Part shown: positions 13,120 to 32,306 of the stretch, in pieces
Layout of the letters: each line of letters begins with the position of its first letter
Numbering within the stretch: position 1 is the stretch's first letter
From: an uncultured Clostridium sp.
GTDB lineage: Bacteria > Bacillota > Clostridia > TANB77 > CAG-508
Direction of reading: 5' to 3'
Assembly (NCBI GenBank): GCA_930991035.1
Contig: CAKNRV010000017.1
Span: 1 to 32,306 of the forward strand
Length of the DNA: 32,306 bases
The notes under the pieces: generated by a model
The model's database searches: none
Told to the model about the DNA's origin: nothing
Seen by the model: the letters and a program-made list of their open reading frames with translations, nothing else
Position numbers and translations under genes: made by a program

Positions 13120-16100
13120 TTATTTCTGTGGTGTCTCTAGAAGTTTTCTTAACCTATTTATTTCTTCTTGTTGTGCATCAATAGTTTGCTGTTGTTCTAA
13201 TAATCTTTGTATTAGTTTACTTTTCTCTATATCTTCTTTTATTTGTTTTTCATTATTTTCAATAATTCTTTGATTTTCATCAATCATCCTTTGTAATTGT
13301 TCTGGTGCCATATCTTCAAAATTAATTTCTTTTTTCTTTTGTTCATCATTTACAGCTACTTGTTTTTCTGTTTCATCTTTGTTTTCAGATGTAATATCTG
13401 TTTCATCTTTTTCTGTTTCTTCTTGTAGTTCATCATCTTCTCCAAATAATTCTCTAAATTTTTTCTCTCTTTCTTCACTTAATTCTTGTTGTCTTTTTTC
13501 TTGTTTTTCAATTATCTCTTTCTCTAATTGTTCTTTTGTTTTAAAAGATATTCCAAATTCTTGCATTTTAGCGACAATTTCTTCAAAATTTCTTTTTCCT
13601 AAATTTCTAACTTTCCTTAATTGTTCTTCTGTCATATTTGCCAAATCTTCTAAATAGTTTATTCCCCCTCTTTTTAAACAATTATATGGTCTTATAGAAA
13701 GTCCAACATCTCCAATATCTAATCTTTCTTCCTCTTCGTTTCTCTTTTTTCCCATAATAGTTCTCTCTTCTTCTTTTTTCTTGTTCCCTTTTCTTGTTCT
13801 TGCTTTTTCTTGAATTTCCTTTAACTTGCCCAAGTTTTCAGATAAATCACCATTTTGTAATTGAATATTTTTTTTAATTTTCTCAATTATCTGTCTTTCT
13901 TTATCTGTCAAGTATTTATCACCTTCTAGTTTAAGAGTGATCTTATTTTCTCTATCTGGATATCTTAATCTTCTAAGTGCTTTAAGCTTTATAGGAGAAA
14001 CTCCTCCTCCTGTTATTCCTAATTCTCTGCCTACGTTTTCTAATGTTGTAGGTGTTTTTCCTTCCTTTAATCCATATATACTTTCTATCACATATTTTTC
14101 TCTTTTGCCTATTTCTTCAAGTGCTTTTTGCAATCCTTTAGATGAATAGAAAAACACGCCTTTTTCACTTGTTTTTATTCCCAATATATCTCTATATAAA
14201 TTATCATATCCAATATTAGAATTATCATCAATATCAACTACATTTCTTATTATTCTCCCTTCTAACTTTCTATCCTTTTTATCTTCAATTTTCCCTGTAT
14301 TATGCATTTCATAAAAATTATCTAGTGTACCAAATTTTGTTAATAAGTAATCTATGTCTTTTTCTATTATTCCATATCTTTTTGCTAATTCTTCTATTCT
14401 TGTTGAATATCCAAAAACTCCTCCAATTTCTCCTTCTTTGCCTCTTTGCACTTGTTTTTCATTTAATTTTCCTTGATGTTTTCTATATCTTACATAATCA
14501 TAATATCTTTGCGTTTTTTCATATTCTTCTTGAATTTTCCTAAATTCTTCATCTGTTCTGGCATATTCCCTTAATTCTTCATCTGTTGCAGTAGGTGTTA
14601 TTTTTATTTTTGGATATTTTCTTCTCCACTCAACTAAACTATCAATTTTTTCATCTATTGTTGAATCAATTTTCCTTTCTAAAATGCCCATACTTTCCAA
14701 TTTTTCTAATTGTTCTTTTGTTAGATTAATTTTTACTTTGTCACCTTCTCCATCATTCATTCTATTTAAACTATTTCTTATTTGTATAGCCCATTGTCCT
14801 ATTGGATATCCCTTAAAAGTTGTATTTCCAACTAATTCTTCTCCTGTTTTCATAAATTCTTCAAATATTTCTATTTTCTGTTCCAATTTTACTTTACTTC
14901 TTTTTGACAATTCAGTTATTTTTTCTGCTATCTCTCTAAATTCTTTTGTTGTATCAAAAATTGAAAGTTTGCTTTTTCTGTAATTTTCTGTTCTTTCTGT
15001 TCCCTCATTTTCTTTATATTTTCTCATTTTTTCTGCAAAATCTTCTATTATTTTGCAAGAATCAAAATTATTTACTAAATCAAGTACAACAGGACTTTTA
15101 TCTCCTCCAACTGTCAATGCTCTACCTAATTGTTGTGTATAAATTGTTGGAGAAAATGTTGGGCGCATCATAACAACACCATCTAAATCTTTTATATGGT
15201 ATCCCTCATTAAGCATATCAACTGCATATAATAACTTTAATGTTCCTTCTTCACTATCTTGTTCAAATTCAGTTAAAATTTTATCTGATTCTTTTATTTT
15301 TGATGAAATACCTCTAATTGTTATATTAGAATTAACTTCTCCAAACATTTTTTGTGCTTGTTTCATTTTTTCGTTCATATCTTCAATGTTTCTGCAAAAT
15401 ATCAAATACTTTCCACTCTTATTTTGCATATGTTCAGAAAACAATTCTGGTAAATTTTGTGTATTTTCATCTAATTTATCTTTTAAAATATTTAATAATT
15501 TTTGTGCTTCTTTTCTTCTATCTTCATCTTTTATTTGGTCTATATTTGTTTGCATACTTTCAAGTTCTTCATCATAACCATACAATGCACTTACATAAGA
15601 TGCTTTTGGGAGTATTTCTCTTTCTATTGCTTCCTCTAATGTCATTTCAGATGCAACATTATTTTCAAATAATTCATCTGCCATATCTCTTAATCCATCA
15701 GTATATCTTACTGGTGTTGCAGATAATCCTAATACACTTGCTCCTTCGTTTCTTTGAAGTAATCTTTCAACGCCTTTTCCCCATTCTGGTGCTCCACAAT
15801 GGTGAAATTCATCTAAAACAATAATATCAGCATCAAGTTCTTGTATTTCCCCATCTGTCAATCCCGCTAATTTTTGATAGGTTATTCTTTTAAGTTGAGG
15901 AAAATCTTCCATTGTCATTCCCTCTGCAAAAATGTTCTTCTTTACATCATGCAATATAGGATTTGATGGTGCTACATATATTGCTTTCTTTCCTTTATTT
16001 TCTTCTAACAATTTTAAAGCAATATACATTTTTCCTGTTCCAGTTGGGTGTATTACAGCAACCTTATTTGATTCCTTTAATTTATCAGTAACTTTTTGAT

Positions 16101-16137
16101 ATGTTTCCACATTATGTGGCTTTAACCTTATAGACAT
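13120..16137 (-). CDS. SF2 DEAD/DEAH helicase with HA, sigma region 4-like and alpha-CTD-like domains
   Basis: A 1005-residue protein of unusual make-up. Residues 1-400 form a superfamily 2 helicase core: Walker A H-P-T-G-T-G-K (30-36), D-E-F-H (109-112), S-A-T-P (139-142) and motif VI Q-Q-L-G-R-A (335-340). Residues 420-485 match a helicase-associated domain (G-Y-P-I-G-Q-W-A-I-Q-I-R-N). Residues 675-726 resemble sigma-70 region 4 (I-Y-G-L-K-E-G-K-T-P-T-T-L-E-N-V-G-R-E-L, then K-A-L-R-R-L-R). Residues 806-866 resemble the RNA polymerase alpha C-terminal domain (L-S-I-R-P-Y-N-C-L-K-R-G-G-I). The tail (868-1005) is charged coiled coil. AAGGAG precedes the ATG. I infer a DNA translocase that engages promoters or RNA polymerase; defence or transcription control is possible. 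Two small genes follow in the operon. Confidence 0.88.
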   Translation of the reverse strand: MSIRLKPHNVETYQKVTDKLKESNKVAVIHPTGTGKMYIALKLLEENKGKKAIYVAPSNPILHDVKKNIFAEGMTMEDFPQLKRITYQKLAGLTDGEIQELDADIIVLDEFHHCGAPEWGKGVERLLQRNEGASVLGLSATPVRYTDGLRDMADELFENNVASEMTLEEAIEREILPKASYVSALYGYDEELESMQTNIDQIKDEDRRKEAQKLLNILKDKLDENTQNLPELFSEHMQNKSGKYLIFCRNIEDMNEKMKQAQKMFGEVNSNITIRGISSKIKESDKILTEFEQDSEEGTLKLLYAVDMLNEGYHIKDLDGVVMMRPTFSPTIYTQQLGRALTVGGDKSPVVLDLVNNFDSCKIIEDFAEKMRKYKENEGTERTENYRKSKLSIFDTTKEFREIAEKITELSKRSKVKLEQKIEIFEEFMKTGEELVGNTTFKGYPIGQWAIQIRNSLNRMNDGEGDKVKINLTKEQLEKLESMGILERKIDSTIDEKIDSLVEWRRKYPKIKITPTATDEELREYARTDEEFRKIQEEYEKTQRYYDYVRYRKHQGKLNEKQVQRGKEGEIGGVFGYSTRIEELAKRYGIIEKDIDYLLTKFGTLDNFYEMHNTGKIEDKKDRKLEGRIIRNVVDIDDNSNIGYDNLYRDILGIKTSEKGVFFYSSKGLQKALEEIGKREKYVIESIYGLKEGKTPTTLENVGRELGITGGGVSPIKLKALRRLRYPDRENKITLKLEGDKYLTDKERQIIEKIKKNIQLQNGDLSENLGKLKEIQEKARTRKGNKKKEEERTIMGKKRNEEEERLDIGDVGLSIRPYNCLKRGGINYLEDLANMTEEQLRKVRNLGKRNFEEIVAKMQEFGISFKTKEQLEKEIIEKQEKRQQELSEEREKKFRELFGEDDELQEETEKDETDITSENKDETEKQVAVNDEQKKKEINFEDMAPEQLQRMIDENQRIIENNEKQIKEDIEKSKLIQRLLEQQQTIDAQQEEINRLRKLLETPQK

Positions 16138-26291: not shown

Positions 26292-26621
26292 TTAACTACT
26301 TAAAGCATTGTTTATTGCTATATTAACGAGCCTGCATACTGATATTCCATATTTTTCTCTTAACTTTTCTAATTTTGCATAAGAGCTTTCACGTATAAGA
26401 AAACTATGTGGCTCAGAAATTTCATTTTCTTTCTTTTTGTAGACATTTATATCTTCCGTTTCAATCAATTCTAATATTGCTATATTCACAATCTTATTAA
26501 TAGAAGCATCATATTTTATGTTAGCAATTTCTTCTAATTTTTCATATAAACTATTATCTATATTTATTTTCTTAGATATTGTTTTTTCTTTTTTTAATAA
26601 ATATTTATCTAAAATCTTCAA
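26292..26621 (-). CDS. Tandem ribbon-helix-helix protein 1
   Basis: About 109 residues with two similar units. Each has a short beta strand followed by two helices: roughly residues 13-50 (I-S-K-K-I-N-I-D-N-S-L-Y-E-K-L) and 70-108 (H-S-F-L-I-R-E-S-S-Y-A-K-L, then V-N-I-A-I-N-N-A-L). This fits a fused pair of ribbon-helix-helix DNA-binding motifs, usual in repressors and antitoxins. A paralogue lies immediately upstream. I chose the TTG at 26621 because GAGG lies eight bases before it; a GTG three codons upstream would overlap that site. No toxin-like partner is visible. Its closeness to the DGR suggests locus regulation (inference). Confidence 0.55.
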   Translation of the reverse strand: MKILDKYLLKKEKTISKKINIDNSLYEKLEEIANIKYDASINKIVNIAILELIETEDINVYKKKENEISEPHSFLIRESSYAKLEKLREKYGISVCRLVNIAINNALSS

Positions 26622-26659
26622 TAGTAACACCTCACAGTAAAACGCTATATTTTGATAAA

Positions 26660-26995
26660 TTAAACATCCATACCTTCCTCTATTAATGCATTTCTAATTG
26701 CAATATTAACTAACATATAAATTGGTACTCCGTATTTTTTCTTTAATTCATATAATCCATTTAGTAAGCTTTCCCTTAAAAGAAAAGTTCTAGTTAAAGT
26801 AATACTGTTTTTTTCATAAGTTTTTATATTTTCGCTTTTTATTAATGTTTCTATTGCTGCATTTACCAATTTATTAATTGATGCATCATATGTTTCTTTT
26901 GAAAGTTTTTCTAACATCATATAAAAGTTCTCATCAATTTCGATAGTTCTAGAAATTATTTTTTCTTTTTTATCAAATTTATCAAAACTAGACAT
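26660..26995 (-). CDS. Tandem ribbon-helix-helix protein 2
   Basis: 111 residues, clearly paralogous to the gene just downstream: the same two-unit layout with shared D-A-S-I-N-K-(L/I)-V-N and L-V-N-I-A-I-x-N-A-L blocks. The first unit begins I-S-R-T-I-E-I-D, the second T-R-T-F-L-L-R-E-S. AAGGTGG lies five bases before the ATG at 26995. A minus-strand promoter just upstream overlaps the palindrome ACAATATTGT (27017-27026), a possible operator for these proteins. The divergent neighbour is a DGR-type accessory gene, so one regulatory region could serve both directions. Confidence 0.58.
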   Translation of the reverse strand: MSSFDKFDKKEKIISRTIEIDENFYMMLEKLSKETYDASINKLVNAAIETLIKSENIKTYEKNSITLTRTFLLRESLLNGLYELKKKYGVPIYMLVNIAIRNALIEEGMDV

Positions 26996-27011
26996 TCTTA
27001 CCACCTTTTTT

Positions 27012-27105: not shown

Positions 27106-27161
27106 ATAAGAAAAGTGACTTCGCGAATATGCACAACTTAAAAATAAAAGGAGGATTTTTG

Positions 27162-27806
27162 TTGAAATTGCGAAAAAATAAATCTAATATAAATATTTTA
27201 TATAAAACTCATATCGATAATATTATAAGCAGGAACATCAAAGATTATTTAAAACTTTTTGAACATTTTAATGATTTACTATCAAATGTATCTAATGATA
27301 ATTTAAGAAAAAATATATTATTTTCTTACTTTGAAATAGAAAAATTATTAAGAAAGGAACGATATTTTATGAGTAAGTTATATGAATGTTATCTTGATTT
27401 AAAAGCTAATGAAGCAAATTCAGATAATACATTATACATTTTTAAATCCGGTATATTTTTTATATTTTTAGATAATGATGCACAAATAGCATCAAAGCTA
27501 TTAAATTTAAAAATCACTTTTTTAACCGAAGATGTAATAAAATGTGGCTTTCCAATTAATGCTTTAAAAAAATATACTAATATTTTAAAAAGAACATCTT
27601 ATAGTTTTAAAATTGTAGATAATATTAAAAACTTAAGTTATTCTATTAAAGATTATGAGCTAGATCAAGATACCAAAGAATTATTATCTAAAATTGCTAG
27701 TATTGAAACAAACTCTCTATCAGTTAAAGAAGCATACGACTTTATAGACATTATAAAGAATTCCGCTAATTTAATAATAGGAAAGGATAACAGTAATGCA
27801 AAGTAA
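27162..27806 (+). CDS. MutS domain I-like DGR accessory protein (copy 1)
   Basis: 214 residues from the TTG at 27162, seven bases after AAGGAGG; an ATG 33 bases earlier has no ribosome site. The centre (about residues 70-155) follows the pattern of MutS domain I: a Y-I-F-K-S-G-I-F-F-I-F-L-D-N-D-A-Q-I-A strand-helix comparable to the MutS F-R-x-G-D-F-Y-E-x-F-x-x-D-A block, then I-K-C-G-F-P-I-N-A-L-K-K-Y comparable to C-G-V-P-x-H. No MutS ATPase or clamp is present. Stand-alone MutS-like proteins occur beside some DGRs. It overlaps the next gene by 11 bases and has its own SigA promoter. Function in retrohoming is inferred. Confidence 0.6.
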   Translation: MKLRKNKSNINILYKTHIDNIISRNIKDYLKLFEHFNDLLSNVSNDNLRKNILFSYFEIEKLLRKERYFMSKLYECYLDLKANEANSDNTLYIFKSGIFFIFLDNDAQIASKLLNLKITFLTEDVIKCGFPINALKKYTNILKRTSYSFKIVDNIKNLSYSIKDYELDQDTKELLSKIASIETNSLSVKEAYDFIDIIKNSANLIIGKDNSNAK

Positions 27807-28149
27807 TAATACAAATGCCAAAAGCAAATCAAATTTATTAATATATCAAAAATATCTTGAACTTATTTATTATACAAATGATATTTTAAAAAAATATCCT
27901 AAATCAGAAAGATTTTCTTTAGTAAAAGAAATTAAAAACACTTTATATGGCGGGCTAAGACTTTTGATGTATGCCATTAAAGTATACAATAAACAAGAAA
28001 AAATAAAATATTTGAATGAATTTTATATAACTATCAACTTATTAAAAGTACATATTAGATTGTCCTATAAGCATAAATATATAACAATGCAAAATTATGA
28101 ATTATGGAATAATTTAATAACTAATATTTGTAATCTGTACAAATATTGA
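27796..28149 (+). CDS. avd: Avd-like four-helix accessory protein (copy 1)
   Basis: 117 residues, almost all helical, in the pattern of the accessory variability determinant and 23S-intervening-sequence bundle family: Y-Q-K-Y-L-E-L-I-Y-Y-T-N-D-I-L-K-K-Y-P-K-S-E-R opens helix 1, followed by three more amphipathic helices with conserved basic faces (V-H-I-R-L-S-Y-K-H-K-Y). Avd forms a basic pentamer that binds template RNA and the reverse transcriptase in characterised DGRs. AAAGGA lies eight bases before the ATG. Its gene overlaps the MutS-like gene by 11 bases, and the terminator overlaps its stop codon. It is convergent with the RT gene. Confidence 0.7.
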   Translation: MQSNNTNAKSKSNLLIYQKYLELIYYTNDILKKYPKSERFSLVKEIKNTLYGGLRLLMYAIKVYNKQEKIKYLNEFYITINLLKVHIRLSYKHKYITMQNYELWNNLITNICNLYKY

Positions 28150-28171
28150 GTAGGGATTTCCGTCCCTACTC
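28148..28171 (+). terminator. Terminator between Avd copy 1 and the RT gene
   Basis: GAGTAGGGA and TCCCTACTC around TTTCCG, followed by TTTT. The stem begins inside the TGA stop codon. It separates two convergent genes only 59 bases apart. Confidence 0.8.
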
Positions 28172-28208: not shown

Positions 28209-29153
28209 TTAGACTTCCCGCATCAATTTCTTATAGCATATCTTTGAGGCGATATAACTATTAAGGCTAATTTTCCCTTCTTTTAGTAAATACAATCTTC
28301 TTTTCATTTTTCTTTTTACAGTTCTCCTTTTAGCATATTGTCCATAGAGATTTCTTCCTAAAAAGCATATATTTTCATTACTAGTATAAATACGTGTTTT
28401 AGCATTTAACACCAATTTTTCTTTTGCTAAAAATTCTCTTATCTTTTCTAAGCAAAACTCCAAATATTCTTTAGACTCTGAAAATAATAAAAAATCGTCT
28501 TGGTAACGTACATATCCTTTTATTTTTAATTCTTCTTTAATAAAATGATCCATATCATTTAAATAAAAAATAGCTAATACTTGACTCGTCATACTGCCAA
28601 TACCAATACCAGAATTATGACTGTCAATAACATCAAATACAATCTTTAGAGCTTTGGGATCTTTAATCTTTTTTCTTAGTTTCTTTTTTAAAATTTTGTG
28701 ATTAATACTTAAGAAAAAGCCACTAATATCACATTTTAAAATATAATATTTTTTTGCCCTAGCTGAGAACTCTTTTCTATATCTATCCATATACTCCAAT
28801 GCCTTTCTTGTACCCATACCCGGTCTACTAGCAACATTATATGGTACTAAGCACGGAAGAAGTGCAGGATACAAAATCTCTCTGGCAATTAAATGATTAA
28901 CAATCTTATCCTTCATTCCCTGACTAACAATCGTTCTTTGTTTTGGTTCATATATAACAAATATGTTGTATTTTCCAACAACATATTTTTCATTTTTTAA
29001 TTCTTCGTAAATATTATGAATCACTGTATTAGCATTTTTTTGCAACTGATGTACCTGCCTTTTATTTTTTGTATTACGAACTACTTCATAATAACAAGCT
29101 TTTATATTTTCTGGCTTATATATGTTTTTATATAAATTACTAAATCTCTTCAA
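28209..29153 (-). CDS. DGR reverse transcriptase
   Basis: A 314-residue reverse transcriptase of the diversity-generating retroelement type. The catalytic residues are present: D142 in K-C-D-I-S-G-F-F and the Y-Q-D-D box (217-220) in Y-V-R-Y-Q-D-D-F. The DGR-type motif 4 reads G-I-G-S-M-T-S-Q-V-L-A-I-F-Y-L (184-198); most DGR enzymes have I-G-N there, so this one has S-M. The compact size, with no maturase or endonuclease domain, also fits DGRs rather than group II introns. The start is a TTG shortly after AGAGG. The gene lies downstream of Avd copy 2 and copies the TR located 1.7 kb away on the same strand. Confidence 0.93.
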   Translation of the reverse strand: MKRFSNLYKNIYKPENIKACYYEVVRNTKNKRQVHQLQKNANTVIHNIYEELKNEKYVVGKYNIFVIYEPKQRTIVSQGMKDKIVNHLIAREILYPALLPCLVPYNVASRPGMGTRKALEYMDRYRKEFSARAKKYYILKCDISGFFLSINHKILKKKLRKKIKDPKALKIVFDVIDSHNSGIGIGSMTSQVLAIFYLNDMDHFIKEELKIKGYVRYQDDFLLFSESKEYLEFCLEKIREFLAKEKLVLNAKTRIYTSNENICFLGRNLYGQYAKRRTVKRKMKRRLYLLKEGKISLNSYIASKICYKKLMREV

Positions 29154-29252
29154 AACCTGCCTCTTTTATTTTAAAATATAATACTAAATTTTGTTACTAA
29201 ACAATGTCTATGCTTTCATTTGCTTTGAAATTCTAAAATATATTAGATTTTA

Positions 29253-29699
29253 TCAAATTGCTTTTCTCCAACCTACCAAGCATTTTGAAATATTATCTAA
29301 CTGTAGTCTTAATTTATGAATCATTTTTGTAGAAATCATTTTATTCTTTTCAATGATATGTAACAAAAAATATAACGTTTTCACTTTAGCAACAGCTTCA
29401 TCAGCCATCTGTTTTTTATATTTTTTGTTATGACTAAAATTTCCCGCACTAATCCTTTCTAATAGCTCAAATGATGTTTTCACTAATTGTTTTTTTATCA
29501 TTTCATGTTTTTTAGGAAAATTTGCAACATCGTCATATACTTTATCTATATATGTATAAGTATAATTTAAAAGTTTAAATTTTTCTTCCATAACAAATCC
29601 AAAGACATTGTTATCGAAATCATATTCTACACTTACATTATTCCATTCTTTGCTATTTTCTAATACTTGATTCTTTTCTATTCTTTCTTCTGGTTTCAT
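29253..29699 (-). CDS. avd: Avd-like four-helix accessory protein (copy 2)
   Basis: 148 residues. After a charged, probably disordered N-terminus of about 40 residues, the rest is a helical bundle of Avd type: K-L-L-N-Y-T-Y-T-Y-I-D-K-V-Y in helix 1, F-P-K-K-H-E-M-I-K-K-Q-L after it, and a C-terminal L-R-L-Q-L-D-N-I-S-K-C-L-V-G-W-R-K, close to the family's usual ending. I used the ATG at 29699; an in-frame TTG at 29714 is possible and neither has a strong ribosome site. The start lies inside the end of the MutS-like gene upstream, so translational coupling is likely. It is followed 99 bases later by the RT. Confidence 0.72.
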   Translation of the reverse strand: MKPEERIEKNQVLENSKEWNNVSVEYDFDNNVFGFVMEEKFKLLNYTYTYIDKVYDDVANFPKKHEMIKKQLVKTSFELLERISAGNFSHNKKYKKQMADEAVAKVKTLYFLLHIIEKNKMISTKMIHKLRLQLDNISKCLVGWRKAI

Positions 29700-30276
29700 T
29701 TTCTTTTTTTCCAATTTTCTTCTTATTTTTTAAGTTTTTGTACTTTTTTCGATAGTCGTCTATGCATCTTTCAATATCATAGATAAGATATAAGATTTCT
29801 CCACTATCAGAATTGGCTCTTAAAAACCTATTTATATTTTTCAGCTTGTATAGAATCCTTTTATAGTATAATCCATTTTGATAATAAATTTCATAACTAT
29901 TATCTTTAAATTGCCTCATATATGTAATTTGATAATTTTGCATTTTATCAACAATAATGTAATTGATATGATAATAATCTAGCACACTAATTATTTCTTG
30001 TAGTTTATAGGATGGTACCCCACTGTATGCCGTAAAAACATTTTGGCTTTTCTGCCCTTTTCCTGCATTCTTATCAAAATAGTGTAATTTCTTAAACGTT
30101 TTTGCGATACGAAAATTGCGATATCTTATTTTTGATTTCATAACATATCCAAAAACAATGGCATCCTTTCCATAAGCATCATAAAAGCATTTTTCCCTGT
30201 CATTTGACATTGTCTTAACAATGACAAGATAATTTTCAAACTGTTTTTTGATTTCAAATTCAACAGTTTTCGACAT
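29653..30276 (-). CDS. MutS domain I-like DGR accessory protein (copy 2)
   Basis: 207 residues. The first 100 match the MutS domain I pattern: Y-L-V-I-V-K-T, then C-F-Y-D-A-Y-G-K-D-A-I-V-F-G-Y (compare D-F-Y-E-x-F-G-x-D-A), and Y-S-G-V-P-S-Y-K-L-Q-E-I-I-S-V-L (compare the G-V-P-x-H turn). The middle is beta-rich with many tyrosines and the C-terminus is strongly basic (K-N-L-K-N-K-K-K-I-G-K-K), suited to nucleic-acid binding. AGGAG precedes the ATG by six bases. Its last 47 bases overlap the Avd gene, as also happens in the plus-strand pair. No ATPase domain is present, so it cannot be a repair enzyme on its own. Confidence 0.62.
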   Translation of the reverse strand: MSKTVEFEIKKQFENYLVIVKTMSNDREKCFYDAYGKDAIVFGYVMKSKIRYRNFRIAKTFKKLHYFDKNAGKGQKSQNVFTAYSGVPSYKLQEIISVLDYYHINYIIVDKMQNYQITYMRQFKDNSYEIYYQNGLYYKRILYKLKNINRFLRANSDSGEILYLIYDIERCIDDYRKKYKNLKNKKKIGKKENETRRKNRKESSIRK

Positions 30277-30325
30277 TTTTCACTCCTACATTAAAAGTTT
30301 TTTATCGTTCGCAATTACTTTTTGT

Positions 30326-30432
30326 CGGAAGACTATATGTTTTAATTTTATGTTAGAGTGCTTAAGTTGGAACCGACAAGTTTGTACGTAGTAGAGGAAA
30401 GGAAAAATAAAATTAAAACATATAGTCTTCCG
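30326..30432 (+). ncRNA. Long self-complementary element with conserved core (copy 2)
   Basis: The outer arms (30326-30350 and 30408-30432) pair perfectly over 25 bases but share no sequence with the arms of the copy at 19430. The core AGTGCTTAAGTTGGAACCGA, then GTACGTAGT and GGAAAAATAAAA, and the flank CCGGCATTAATTG, match copy 1; the internal hairpin of copy 1 is absent. It lies between the TR and the MutS-like copy 2 gene, with the core on the strand opposite to the DGR genes. Confidence 0.55.
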
Positions 30433-30847
30433 GCATTAATTGTAACACAATTTTAGAACCACTCACATTCTTAAGTGGCGAGACAGTAACAGAGATTTAT
30501 CCCTTTCGACATTACAATATAAAATTGAATTACTACTAACAAAAAATCTCATCTATCTTTTCTTTAGGGTGTTTACAAAAGTCTATTAAGAGATTGCCAT
30601 TTATTATAATTTCTCCTTAAATTTGAGTTACTTCTTCCCAGAATTATATTCTGGTGCACTCAGAAAATAATAAAATAACAGCTTTTCTTTTTTGTGCTTT
30701 ACTATTTTGTCAGACTTTCTTTTTATAGTAAACACTTACAAGGACATTGGTTTGTTTCTATAGCTTCGGATATGTAACTTTTGAGCTGCAAACAACTAAA
30801 AAATATAGCCGAGCAACTAGGTTGGCATATCAAAAGTTTTATAGAAT
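30433..30847. other. Gene-free stretch downstream of the TR
   Basis: About 415 bases with no convincing gene. On the minus strand it is the region between the TR and the accessory genes, where DGR template RNAs usually carry structured flanking sequence needed for priming. A small hairpin CCAGAAT-TAT-ATTCTGG lies at about 30644-30660. AAGGAG followed by ATG near 30610 on the minus strand opens a frame of only four codons. Confidence 0.4.
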
Positions 30848-31004
30848 CTGCAAGACTGGGCGCAAGCCATAGCAATTAGAGTTCGTTCCAGTGTTTGAGT
30901 TAAACACGTTGCTTGTGCTTAATGCTCCACTGCCAGACATATAGCGGAAGTTGAAGTTAGCGTTGTTCCAGTTCGCGTTCACGCAGCGCGACGAAAGCCA
31001 GAAT
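30848..31004 (-). repeat. DGR template repeat (TR)
   Basis: 157 bases matching the VR at 31760-31916 without gaps, offset 912. Read on the minus strand it is in frame with the target gene and is rich in AAC codons (N-A-N-W-N-N-A-N-F-N-F), the usual design because mutating AAC adenines reaches many amino acids but no stop codon. Of its 40 coding-strand adenines nine differ in the VR; none of the other 117 bases differs. It is GC-rich relative to its surroundings and lies in a noncoding interval between two accessory genes. Confidence 0.95.
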
Positions 31005-31034
31005 CAAAGAGTCCTTCAGGCAAAAAAATCTTTA

Positions 31035-31502
31035 TCAACCATGCCCTATATATTTTTGTATATAATTTAGTACATTTGAAAAATCTTTTTTTCCACATAA
31101 TGCATCACATTGCTCCATAATTTCATTTAATTTTAGCTTGTCCATACAATATTTTTCTGAAGCAATATATCTTCTTTGATAAGTATTTAATTTTTTAAAA
31201 TCTTTAACAATATCACTTTTATCTTTTATTTTTATTACATAATTTATTTTTTTATCTTCTAAATCTAACAAAACTTTATCCAGAGAATTTCTAGGAAATC
31301 CAGTTTTAGGAACATATACTTCTTTTTCTTCTTCTGTCTTATATAATTTATTAATAAATTTAAATCTAAACAGATAACATAGAAGATATGCATCTTTACC
31401 ATAAACATTATAGAAATTCCCGCTTAGTACTAGTAATATGGAATTAGGATATTTCTGGTGATATTCTGTTTCCATATCTCTTATATACTCATATTTTATC
31501 AT
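31035..31502 (-). CDS. MutS domain I-like DGR accessory protein (copy 3)
   Basis: 155 residues, the shortest of the three. The pattern is Y-I-R-D-M-E-T-E-Y, then N-S-I-L-L-V-L-S-G-N-F-Y-N-V-Y-G-K-D-A-Y (compare the MutS F-x-x-G-D-F-Y-E-x-F-G-x-D-A block), then K-T-G-F-P-R-N-S-L-D-K-V-L (compare C-G-V-P-x-H). The C-terminal 50 residues are helical. It shares Y-G-K-D-A with copy 2. GAGG precedes the ATG by six bases. It lies between the VR gene and the TR, and its transcript probably runs into the TR, so it may be encoded on the template RNA precursor. No Avd partner directly follows. Confidence 0.6.
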   Translation of the reverse strand: MIKYEYIRDMETEYHQKYPNSILLVLSGNFYNVYGKDAYLLCYLFRFKFINKLYKTEEEKEVYVPKTGFPRNSLDKVLLDLEDKKINYVIKIKDKSDIVKDFKKLNTYQRRYIASEKYCMDKLKLNEIMEQCDALCGKKDFSNVLNYIQKYIGHG

Positions 31503-31540
31503 TTGTTACCTCATTTATCACAAATTTATTATCTTTATAA

Positions 31541-31571
31541 CCTATATAAATAATATATAGGAAATTGACAA
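31541..31571 (-). promoter_or_regulatory. Promoter with overlapping palindrome ahead of copy 3 and the TR
   Basis: On the minus strand TTGTCA (31566-31571), a 17-base spacer and TATATA (31543-31548). CCTATATA-AATAA-TATATAGG (31541-31561) is a perfect 8-bp inverted repeat covering the -10 box, a likely operator position. The ATG of the MutS-like gene follows about 40 bases on. Confidence 0.5.
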
Positions 31572-31659
31572 AGAAAAATGTCGGTTTTCCTACATATTTT
31601 TTGTCCAAAAACTATTGACATTTACACATAAGTCACTCATAACCGATAAAACAGGGTCA

Positions 31660-31688
31660 CTCCCAAACGCCCAAGGTCGTTTAGGGAG
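31660..31688 (-). terminator. Hairpin after the DGR target gene
   Basis: CTCCC-AAACG pairs with CGTTTAGGGAG with one bulged base. No T-run follows on the minus strand, so it is a weak terminator or a stabilising 3' structure about 60 bases after the target stop codon. Confidence 0.35.
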
Positions 31689-31747
31689 CAAACTCTACTG
31701 TTCCTAATGTTTTGCCATATTTCTAATTTTCCGTTTCGGATATTTGA

Positions 31748-32306
31748 CTATTTAGAAACCTGCAAGACTGGGCGCAAGCCATAGCAATTAGAGTTCGCCC
31801 CAGCGTTTGAGTAAAACACGTTGCTTGTGCTTAATGCCCCACTGCCAGACATATAGCGGAAGTAGAAGTAAGCGTTGTACCAGTACGCGTTCACGCAGCG
31901 CGACGAAAGCCAGAATGGTGTTCCTGTATTAGCCTGTGCAGTATTTCTATTTGGGCTAGTCCAAATAGCATTGTATACAACTTTTAATCCAGGATCTGCG
32001 TTATATCTCTCATAAGAATATGAATTTCTTTGCTCGTTTGTTAATTGTGTTGTCGTTCCTGTTGTACTTAAGTTATATGTTGTTATTTTTGCATTTGAAT
32101 ATCCATCACTTATTCCATTACTTGTATTTATGTCTTCATAGGCAAATAATGTTGGAGCATATCTATTTCCTGTTGACGTTATTTTATTTGGTGCTGTACT
32201 ATCTGATGCATTTGTTGACCATACTCCCCCATATGAAGAACTACTTGTTTTAGTCTCGTCATAAAAGTCTTCAAATTTTGCATTTCTTGCTAACACTACA
32301 TTTACT
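31748..32306 (-). CDS. DGR target protein, C-type-lectin-like variable domain (partial)
   Basis: The last 186 or so residues of a larger protein; the frame is open to the window edge, so the start lies outside, and a GTG at 32296 is probably internal. The C-terminus F-W-L-S-S-R-C-V-N-A-Y-W-Y-N-A and the closing C-Y-G-L-R-P-V-L-Q-V-S-K are typical of lectin-fold or formylglycine-enzyme-like display domains used by DGRs. The VR covers the last 50 residues. Changes from the TR are five Asn to Tyr, two Thr to Ala and two silent. The Ser/Thr/Asn-rich visible part suggests an extracellular ligand-binding protein; anchoring cannot be judged here. Confidence 0.88.
   Translation of the reverse strand, partial: VNVVLARNAKFEDFYDETKTSSSSYGGVWSTNASDSTAPNKITSTGNRYAPTLFAYEDINTSNGISDGYSNAKITTYNLSTTGTTTQLTNEQRNSYSYERYNADPGLKVVYNAIWTSPNRNTAQANTGTPFWLSSRCVNAYWYNAYFYFRYMSGSGALSTSNVFYSNAGANSNCYGLRPVLQVSK
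31760..31916 (-). repeat. DGR variable repeat (VR)
   Basis: 157 bases, gap-free match to the TR at 30848-31004. The nine differences lie at 31798, 31799, 31804, 31813, 31838, 31864, 31870, 31879 and 31885, all where the TR coding strand has A. It ends nine bases before the target stop codon. Its 3' end (GGCTTGCGCCCAGTCTTGCA) is unaltered and GC-rich, as expected for the homing-initiation segment. Confidence 0.95.

Follow-up and report, generated by a model that had tools for sequence, protein, structure and literature searches.

Diversity-generating retroelements (DGRs) are natural devices that, at positions where a template has adenine, rewrite one end of particular surface-type proteins. 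One step of their retrohoming is the way in which the mutated cDNA evades or exploits the mismatch repair of the host. A DGR lies in a 32,306-nucleotide stretch of DNA from an uncultured Clostridium sp. (hereafter the window, which is contig C17, 1-32306, of a draft genome of 1.6 Mb). The element, located on the chromosome, is of a familiar kind, but its set of accessory genes is unusual, comprising two Avd genes and three genes for MutS-domain-I-like (MSL) proteins.

Organization of the DGR

The minus strand between 28209 and 32306 holds the reverse transcriptase (RT) gene, the template repeat (TR), the variable repeat (VR) and the target gene, together with one Avd gene and two MSL genes. 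Read along this strand, the order is the 3' part of the target with its VR, a hairpin, MSL_a, TR, a conserved spacer, MSL_b, Avd_a and RT, while MSL_c and Avd_b lie on the plus strand, convergent to the RT gene. The principal features are listed below, with dN/dS, the ratio of nonsynonymous to synonymous substitution rates, taken from comparisons in which dS is often saturated.

27129..27806, plus strand: MSL_c, class I (MutS_I E=5e-7; MSL tree; dN/dS 0.14 for the part in common, with dS saturated)
27796..28149, plus strand: Avd_b, assigned to the genus's other DGR lineage (bAvd E=5e-15; Avd tree, clade support 100/100)
28209..29162, minus strand: DGR reverse transcriptase (RVT_1 E=2e-18; best PDB match the BPP-1 DGR RT; dN/dS about 0.07)
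29253..29714, minus strand: Avd_a, overlapping MSL_b (bAvd E=1.5e-10; PHROG "Avd protein of DGR" 4e-12)
29653..30276, minus strand: MSL_b, class II, 207 aa (MSL profile E=4e-10; MSL tree; dN/dS 0.06-0.16)
30845..31004, minus strand: TR, non-coding (repeat alignment with VR)
31035..31502, minus strand: MSL_a, class II, 155 aa (MutS_I E=1e-6; dN/dS about 0.12)
31748..32306, minus strand: 3' part (185 codons) of the DGR target gene (frame open up to the contig end)
31757..31916, minus strand: VR, 3' end of the target open reading frame (150/160 identical to TR)
31757..31780, minus strand: 3' end of VR resembling an initiation of mutagenic homing (IMH) site, with a constant A>G relative to TR at repeat position 158 (31759)

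An earlier note on this DNA had placed RT, TR, VR and target on one strand within 4.1 kb, as is the case, and had described two Avd-like and three MutS-like accessory genes, which are real according to their matches to bAvd, to MutS_I and to an MSL profile (both Avd proteins match bAvd over the Pfam cut-off). It had also called the DGR complete, which does not hold for the target. Since this gene runs past the contig end, with its 5' part beyond it, the element is incomplete as assembled. The partial target has no match in Pfam, and its AlphaFold2 model (pLDDT 43.8) is too poor for a C-type-lectin or Ig-like fold of the variable domain to be read. Its C terminus can be aligned with target C termini at related DGR loci.

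DGR-type RTs bear the signature YxDD and [IVL]GxxxSQ, and the RT in the window displays YQDD and IGSMTSQ. When its profile was compared with the PDB, the best match was the BPP-1 DGR RT (8ub7, E=1e-34), followed, with E values between 9e-14 and 1e-11, by RT chains of group II and of "retron-type"; the RT also matches the PHROG "Reverse transcriptase" (2.5e-80). Assignment to the group II or retron type was rejected on these PDB matches, and the enzyme is DGR-type, as first proposed.

The element shares with the BPP-1 DGR (brt, avd, TR and mtd VR1) an RT, an Avd, a TR and a VR at the 3' end of the target, all on one strand, as well as an IMH-like end, a hairpin after VR and adenine-specific differences. 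It differs from BPP-1 in being chromosomal, in carrying three MSL and two Avd genes, and in having a trans target and a target paralogue with a prepilin-like leader. The same RT, Avd and MSL families, in the order VR-MSL-Avd-TR-RT or in a form with inverted RT, are found in DGRs with MSL (PF01624) from metagenome-assembled genomes (MAGs) of gut Clostridia and Bacilli, which, in contrast to the window, mostly have one MSL and one Avd per locus. The set of three MSL and two Avd genes was seen only in the window and in the syntenic locus of a sister species, G003; a third locus, L070, from another sister species, is a decayed version of it.

Adenine-specific differences in a chromosomal setting

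TR and VR align without gaps, and their ten differences (five A>T and five A>G) all fall on TR adenines, a bias that is highly significant (p=5e-7, hypergeometric, with A making up 41/160 TR bases). VR ends two codons ahead of the target stop codon. The A>G at position 158 is common to the aligned VRs, that is, the cis VR of the window, a VR on contig C12 of the same genome, and those of the sisters L070 and G003. It thus corresponds to a fixed TR/VR (IMH*/IMH) difference, leaving nine mutagenic sites, the number of variable sites counted in the earlier note. In L070, which carries a separate TR/VR pair, all differences (14/14) fall on adenines (p=2e-10), and the VR pattern is unlike that of the window. 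Two near-identical 160-bp stretches could in principle be an ordinary duplication, a reading that is refuted on sequence by the adenine-only differences in the window and again in L070, next to a linked DGR RT and Avd, and to which we attach a vanishingly small probability. The adenine-only differences, and patterns that differ between sister species, lend good support at the sequence level to the suggestion that the DGR diversifies a host protein.

Which replicon the DGR belongs to is indicated by its surroundings. The contig encodes sigma factors, SpoIIGA, FtsZ, FtsA, an FtsQ-type POTRA protein, a topoisomerase, a ClpC-like AAA+ protein and ComEC, and the syntenic element in G003 adjoins comEC and a clpC-like gene. 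No phage structural or integration genes were found among the annotated neighbours on the contig up to its right end, in line with what had been noted for the window; the neighbours are division, sporulation, competence and other housekeeping genes. Gut phages do hold DGRs, and their best DGR-type RTs are 30-37% identical to that of the window, which speaks for a prophage or another mobile element as the carrier. However, two scans of IMG/VR returned no close relative (best 24% identity), and the closest named records are MAGs of gut Clostridia. Together with the chromosomal neighbours and the synteny at the same site in G003, this makes a prophage or mobile origin very improbable; we rejected phage origin after the two scans, and the DGR is chromosomal as originally described.

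A second target in trans

Beyond the earlier note, the genome contains a second target, in trans. TR matches C12:20662-20821 with 86% identity, which corresponds to the 3' end of a 720-aa gene. The C-terminal part of this gene shows 90% nucleotide identity to the window target over the shared part, and the C12 copy retains its 5' part. The N terminus of the encoded protein resembles a prepilin leader (N_methyl 17.5 bits, under the Pfam cut-off of 21.2), and the varied part is therefore probably exposed on the cell surface. One cis and one trans VR are likewise present in each of G003 and G037 (to which L070 belongs), and 16/18 and 12/19, respectively, of the differences between the trans VR and TR are at adenines. 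In C12, 16/23 differences are at adenines. Two points at C12 weigh against this picture: its VR carries several non-adenine differences, and only a weak hairpin follows it. Some of the non-adenine differences match the TR of L070, which suggests that the TR itself has since changed. In three uncultured species of gut Clostridia, a single TR apparently serves targets both in cis and in trans, and we consider it very probable that the window holds a DGR with both kinds of target. In G003, the cis target (contig C29, L043:1353-1504) ends prematurely within VR owing to changes that break its frame; its TR has the full length.

The genome of the window (G000) has a second DGR, also new relative to the earlier note, on contig C6:13786-18311 (L014:3787-8312), with an MSL, a target, a TR, an Avd and an RT. 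Its RT is split over two frames, its TR and VR differ by a 9-base gap, and its 500-aa target has a prepilin-like leader and a weak FGE-sulfatase match. At 43437-45489 on contig C5 (L068:7438-9490), a class I MSL gene stands as an orphan beside a gene for an FGE-sulfatase-type protein with a prepilin leader; no RT was found on this contig, and from its sequence the protein looks like an orphan DGR target.

A hairpin after VR and other non-coding parts

Four further features lie in or beside the element:

28148..28171, unstranded: hairpin resembling a two-way terminator, where the Avd_b and RT genes converge
30315..30440, plus strand: inverted-repeat insertion resembling a miniature inverted-repeat transposable element (MITE), not part of the DGR (both sister species lack it there)
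30441..30844, minus strand: non-coding spacer on the 3' side of TR, in which a long stem is predicted at 30758-30844 (spacer conserved in three species)
31660..31688, minus strand: hairpin downstream of VR (CTCCCTAAACG...CGTTTGGGAG), absent after TR (z=-2.7)

The hairpin after VR, which the earlier note had missed, is identical in three species despite diverged flanks. Across 51 related loci, the best local hairpin averages -17.8 kcal/mol after VR, -8.6 after TR and -9.1 in shuffles (p=8e-10 for VR vs TR), and most loci have one, with a few lacking it; the TR/VR pairs in this set were selected for adenine bias, so that the bias within it is not an independent test. In BPP-1, a hairpin after VR is needed for efficient homing (PMC3240598). 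The hairpin in the window lies about 68 nt past VR, in contrast to 4-34 bp in phage DGRs (PMC3240598). The stem in the TR spacer folds only modestly better than shuffles (z=-1.7); the spacer is a candidate TR-RNA recognition or priming region. Partial copies of the MITE-like insertion, which sits in the spacer between TR and MSL_b, occur at about ten further sites in this genome.

MSL proteins resemble stand-alone MutS domains I and accompany DGRs

MSL (PF01624) is already listed as a DGR accessory (PMC10053308, also the source here for MSL in the main DGR survey, Wu et al. 2018). The present analysis adds the co-occurrence of MSL with DGR RTs, the model of the MutS domain I fold, the Phe/Glu pattern, the two classes and their pairing, and an RT-MSL fusion.

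The AlphaFold2 model of MSL_a (pLDDT 94.7) aligns in VIA-align to MutS domain I with a Z of 12.4 over 93 residues at 2.0 Å. MSL_b has no match in Pfam but scores against an MSL profile from which its own family was left out (E=4e-10 at Z=5000, with high composition bias). The likeness to MutS domain I extends to the GxF(Y/F) wedge, in which the Phe is the sole invariant column of a 62-row MSL alignment. Compared with the host's own MutS, the wedge Phe is kept in 103/105 MSLs, whereas the Glu of the Phe-X-Glu motif is kept in 12/105 and replaced in 92/105; its position is occupied by N in MSL_a, D in MSL_b and I in MSL_c. MSLs also differ from MutS in being DGR-linked and in having no connector, clamp or ATPase domain, and the MSLs of the window (155-225 aa) gave no Pfam match to clamp or ATPase domains.

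Among 287 genomes of the order, 105 have both an MSL and a DGR RT, 20 an MSL only, 24 an RT only and 138 neither (odds ratio 30, p=8e-34), as counted with an MSL threshold of 1e-15, set to exclude true MutS, and with genome lists transferred by hand. A single 429-aa frame at L130:2140-3429 encodes a DGR RT followed by an MSL domain.

In the MSL tree, the proteins fall into class I (34) and class II (71) with support 99/88. Counting MSL open reading frames of 95-240 aa and taking class labels from the tree, 18 loci have at least two MSLs and 15 exactly two, of which 14 combine a class I with a class II. The fifteenth, L070, counts as a class II pair; a further MSL open reading frame of 77 aa, under the length filter and unplaced in the tree, lies there at the position that the class I MSL_c occupies in the window and in G003. 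The remaining three loci (window, G003 and L072) each combine one class I MSL with two of class II. None of 100,000 shuffles had every pair mixed, a figure that stands for the 15/15 case, stricter than the 14/15 seen, and ignores relatedness, so that the class pairing is a strong pattern and not a measured probability.

Proposed role of the MSLs in retrohoming

By analogy with BPP-1, TR would be transcribed together with its conserved 3' spacer, and RT and Avd would copy the TR RNA into cDNA with errors opposite adenines. The cDNA would then take the place of VR in the 3' ends of the target genes; the IMH-like end would direct this step, helped in the case of the cis target by the hairpin after VR, such that one TR may serve the cis target and the remote paralogue with the prepilin-like leader. 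As putative stand-alone mismatch-binding domains of MutS, with the wedge Phe kept and the ATPase and mostly the Glu gone, the MSLs probably bind either the VR hairpin or a cDNA-VR intermediate that is mismatched or kinked. In one version, they would bind without calling mismatch repair, and the mutations would be kept.

This last version, in which MSL shields the cDNA/VR heteroduplex from repair, we put forward tentatively, as somewhat less likely than not. What is seen of the MSLs would suit a protein able to insert its Phe into kinked or mismatched DNA yet unable to signal repair. In E. coli MutS, the F36A mutation abolishes specific binding, and Glu38 contacts the mismatch and is needed for signaling to the ATPase domain (PMC3848065). 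The host genome encodes its own MutS and MutL, and a shield would therefore have a target to act against. A more elaborate form, in which paired class I and class II MSLs form a complex that holds the heteroduplex away from host MutS-MutL as an anti-mismatch-repair module, we regard as rather unlikely. Several observations weigh against a shield. MutS with E38Q cannot distinguish mismatched from matched DNA (PMC3848065), and MSLs lacking the Glu may thus bind DNA without mismatch specificity. In E. coli, a BPP-1 reporter that relies on an 18-nt repair was unaffected by deletion of mutS, though according to the authors such an insertion is no MutS substrate (PMC12875486). Moreover, 24 of the 129 RT-bearing genomes are without a clear MSL, and among 20 of these that were examined, a frame of MutS size (869-926 aa) is present in 18, a frame of 586 aa in one and a broken mutS frame in the last. 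Since many RT-bearing genomes without MSL have MutS, MSL is not obligatory where mismatch repair exists, and the idea that a shield is needed wherever there is mismatch repair is unsupported. G251, with a broken mutS frame and no MSL, is a single suggestive case.

Alternatively, the MSLs could be core homing factors whose domain-I fold binds kinked DNA or RNA (the VR hairpin, the IMH nick or the TR RNA), helping RT and Avd to engage the target. MSL genes often adjoin or overlap Avd or RT, and one is fused to RT in L130; the Glu is mostly absent, a hairpin follows VR at most loci, and the presence of both classes in two-MSL loci suggests parts of one complex. Against this, the only residue that no MSL in the alignment has lost is the one that stacks on the mispaired base in MutS, the wedge Phe, and BPP-1 functions without any MSL. 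Such a homing role is a serious contender, if short of probable, and binding of the VR hairpin or TR RNA by MSL is about as likely as the heteroduplex shield. Either way, a widespread accessory that has kept a mismatch-sensing fold and wedge residue and shed the repair-signaling parts makes this step of retrohoming directly testable, and the MSL hypothesis is the part of the locus that deserves a bench test.

Two DGR lineages at one locus

In the MSL and Avd trees, MSL_c and Avd_b fall with the genus's other DGR lineage, and the locus thus mixes two lineages. The two genes might be left-overs of a second DGR that lost its RT and not working parts here, a reading supported by their grouping and by their partial loss in the sisters: MSL_c is split in G003, only the 77-aa piece was found in L070, and no second Avd was found at L070. 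Yet both frames are open in the window, with a dN/dS of 0.14-0.17 relative to G003 (dS saturated), and class I MSLs adjoin the RT at many related DGRs. The balance is close, and we place the left-over reading slightly below an even chance.

A broader form of decay, in which the anatomy of the DGR is kept and homing has stopped, would fit the truncated cis target of G003, the damage to MSL_c in both sisters, the split RT of the C6 element and the MITE in the spacer between TR and MSL_b. All parts in the window are open, however, RT, Avd and MSL are under purifying selection (dN/dS 0.06-0.18, with high dS), and the repeats differ at adenines with no other decay between them; we judge inactivity improbable.

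Other genes of the window

Two genes on the minus strand (26292-26630 and 26660-27004), with weak ribbon-helix-helix/Arc-like matches, are possible regulators. This tandem (26292-27004) lies beside the DGR, its place and order are kept in G003, and its dN/dS is 0.06-0.16. Further away, 13120-16137 encodes a 1005-aa protein with an unusual mix of matches to a ResIII/DEAD helicase, sigma-70 region 4 and the C-terminal domain of RNA polymerase alpha.

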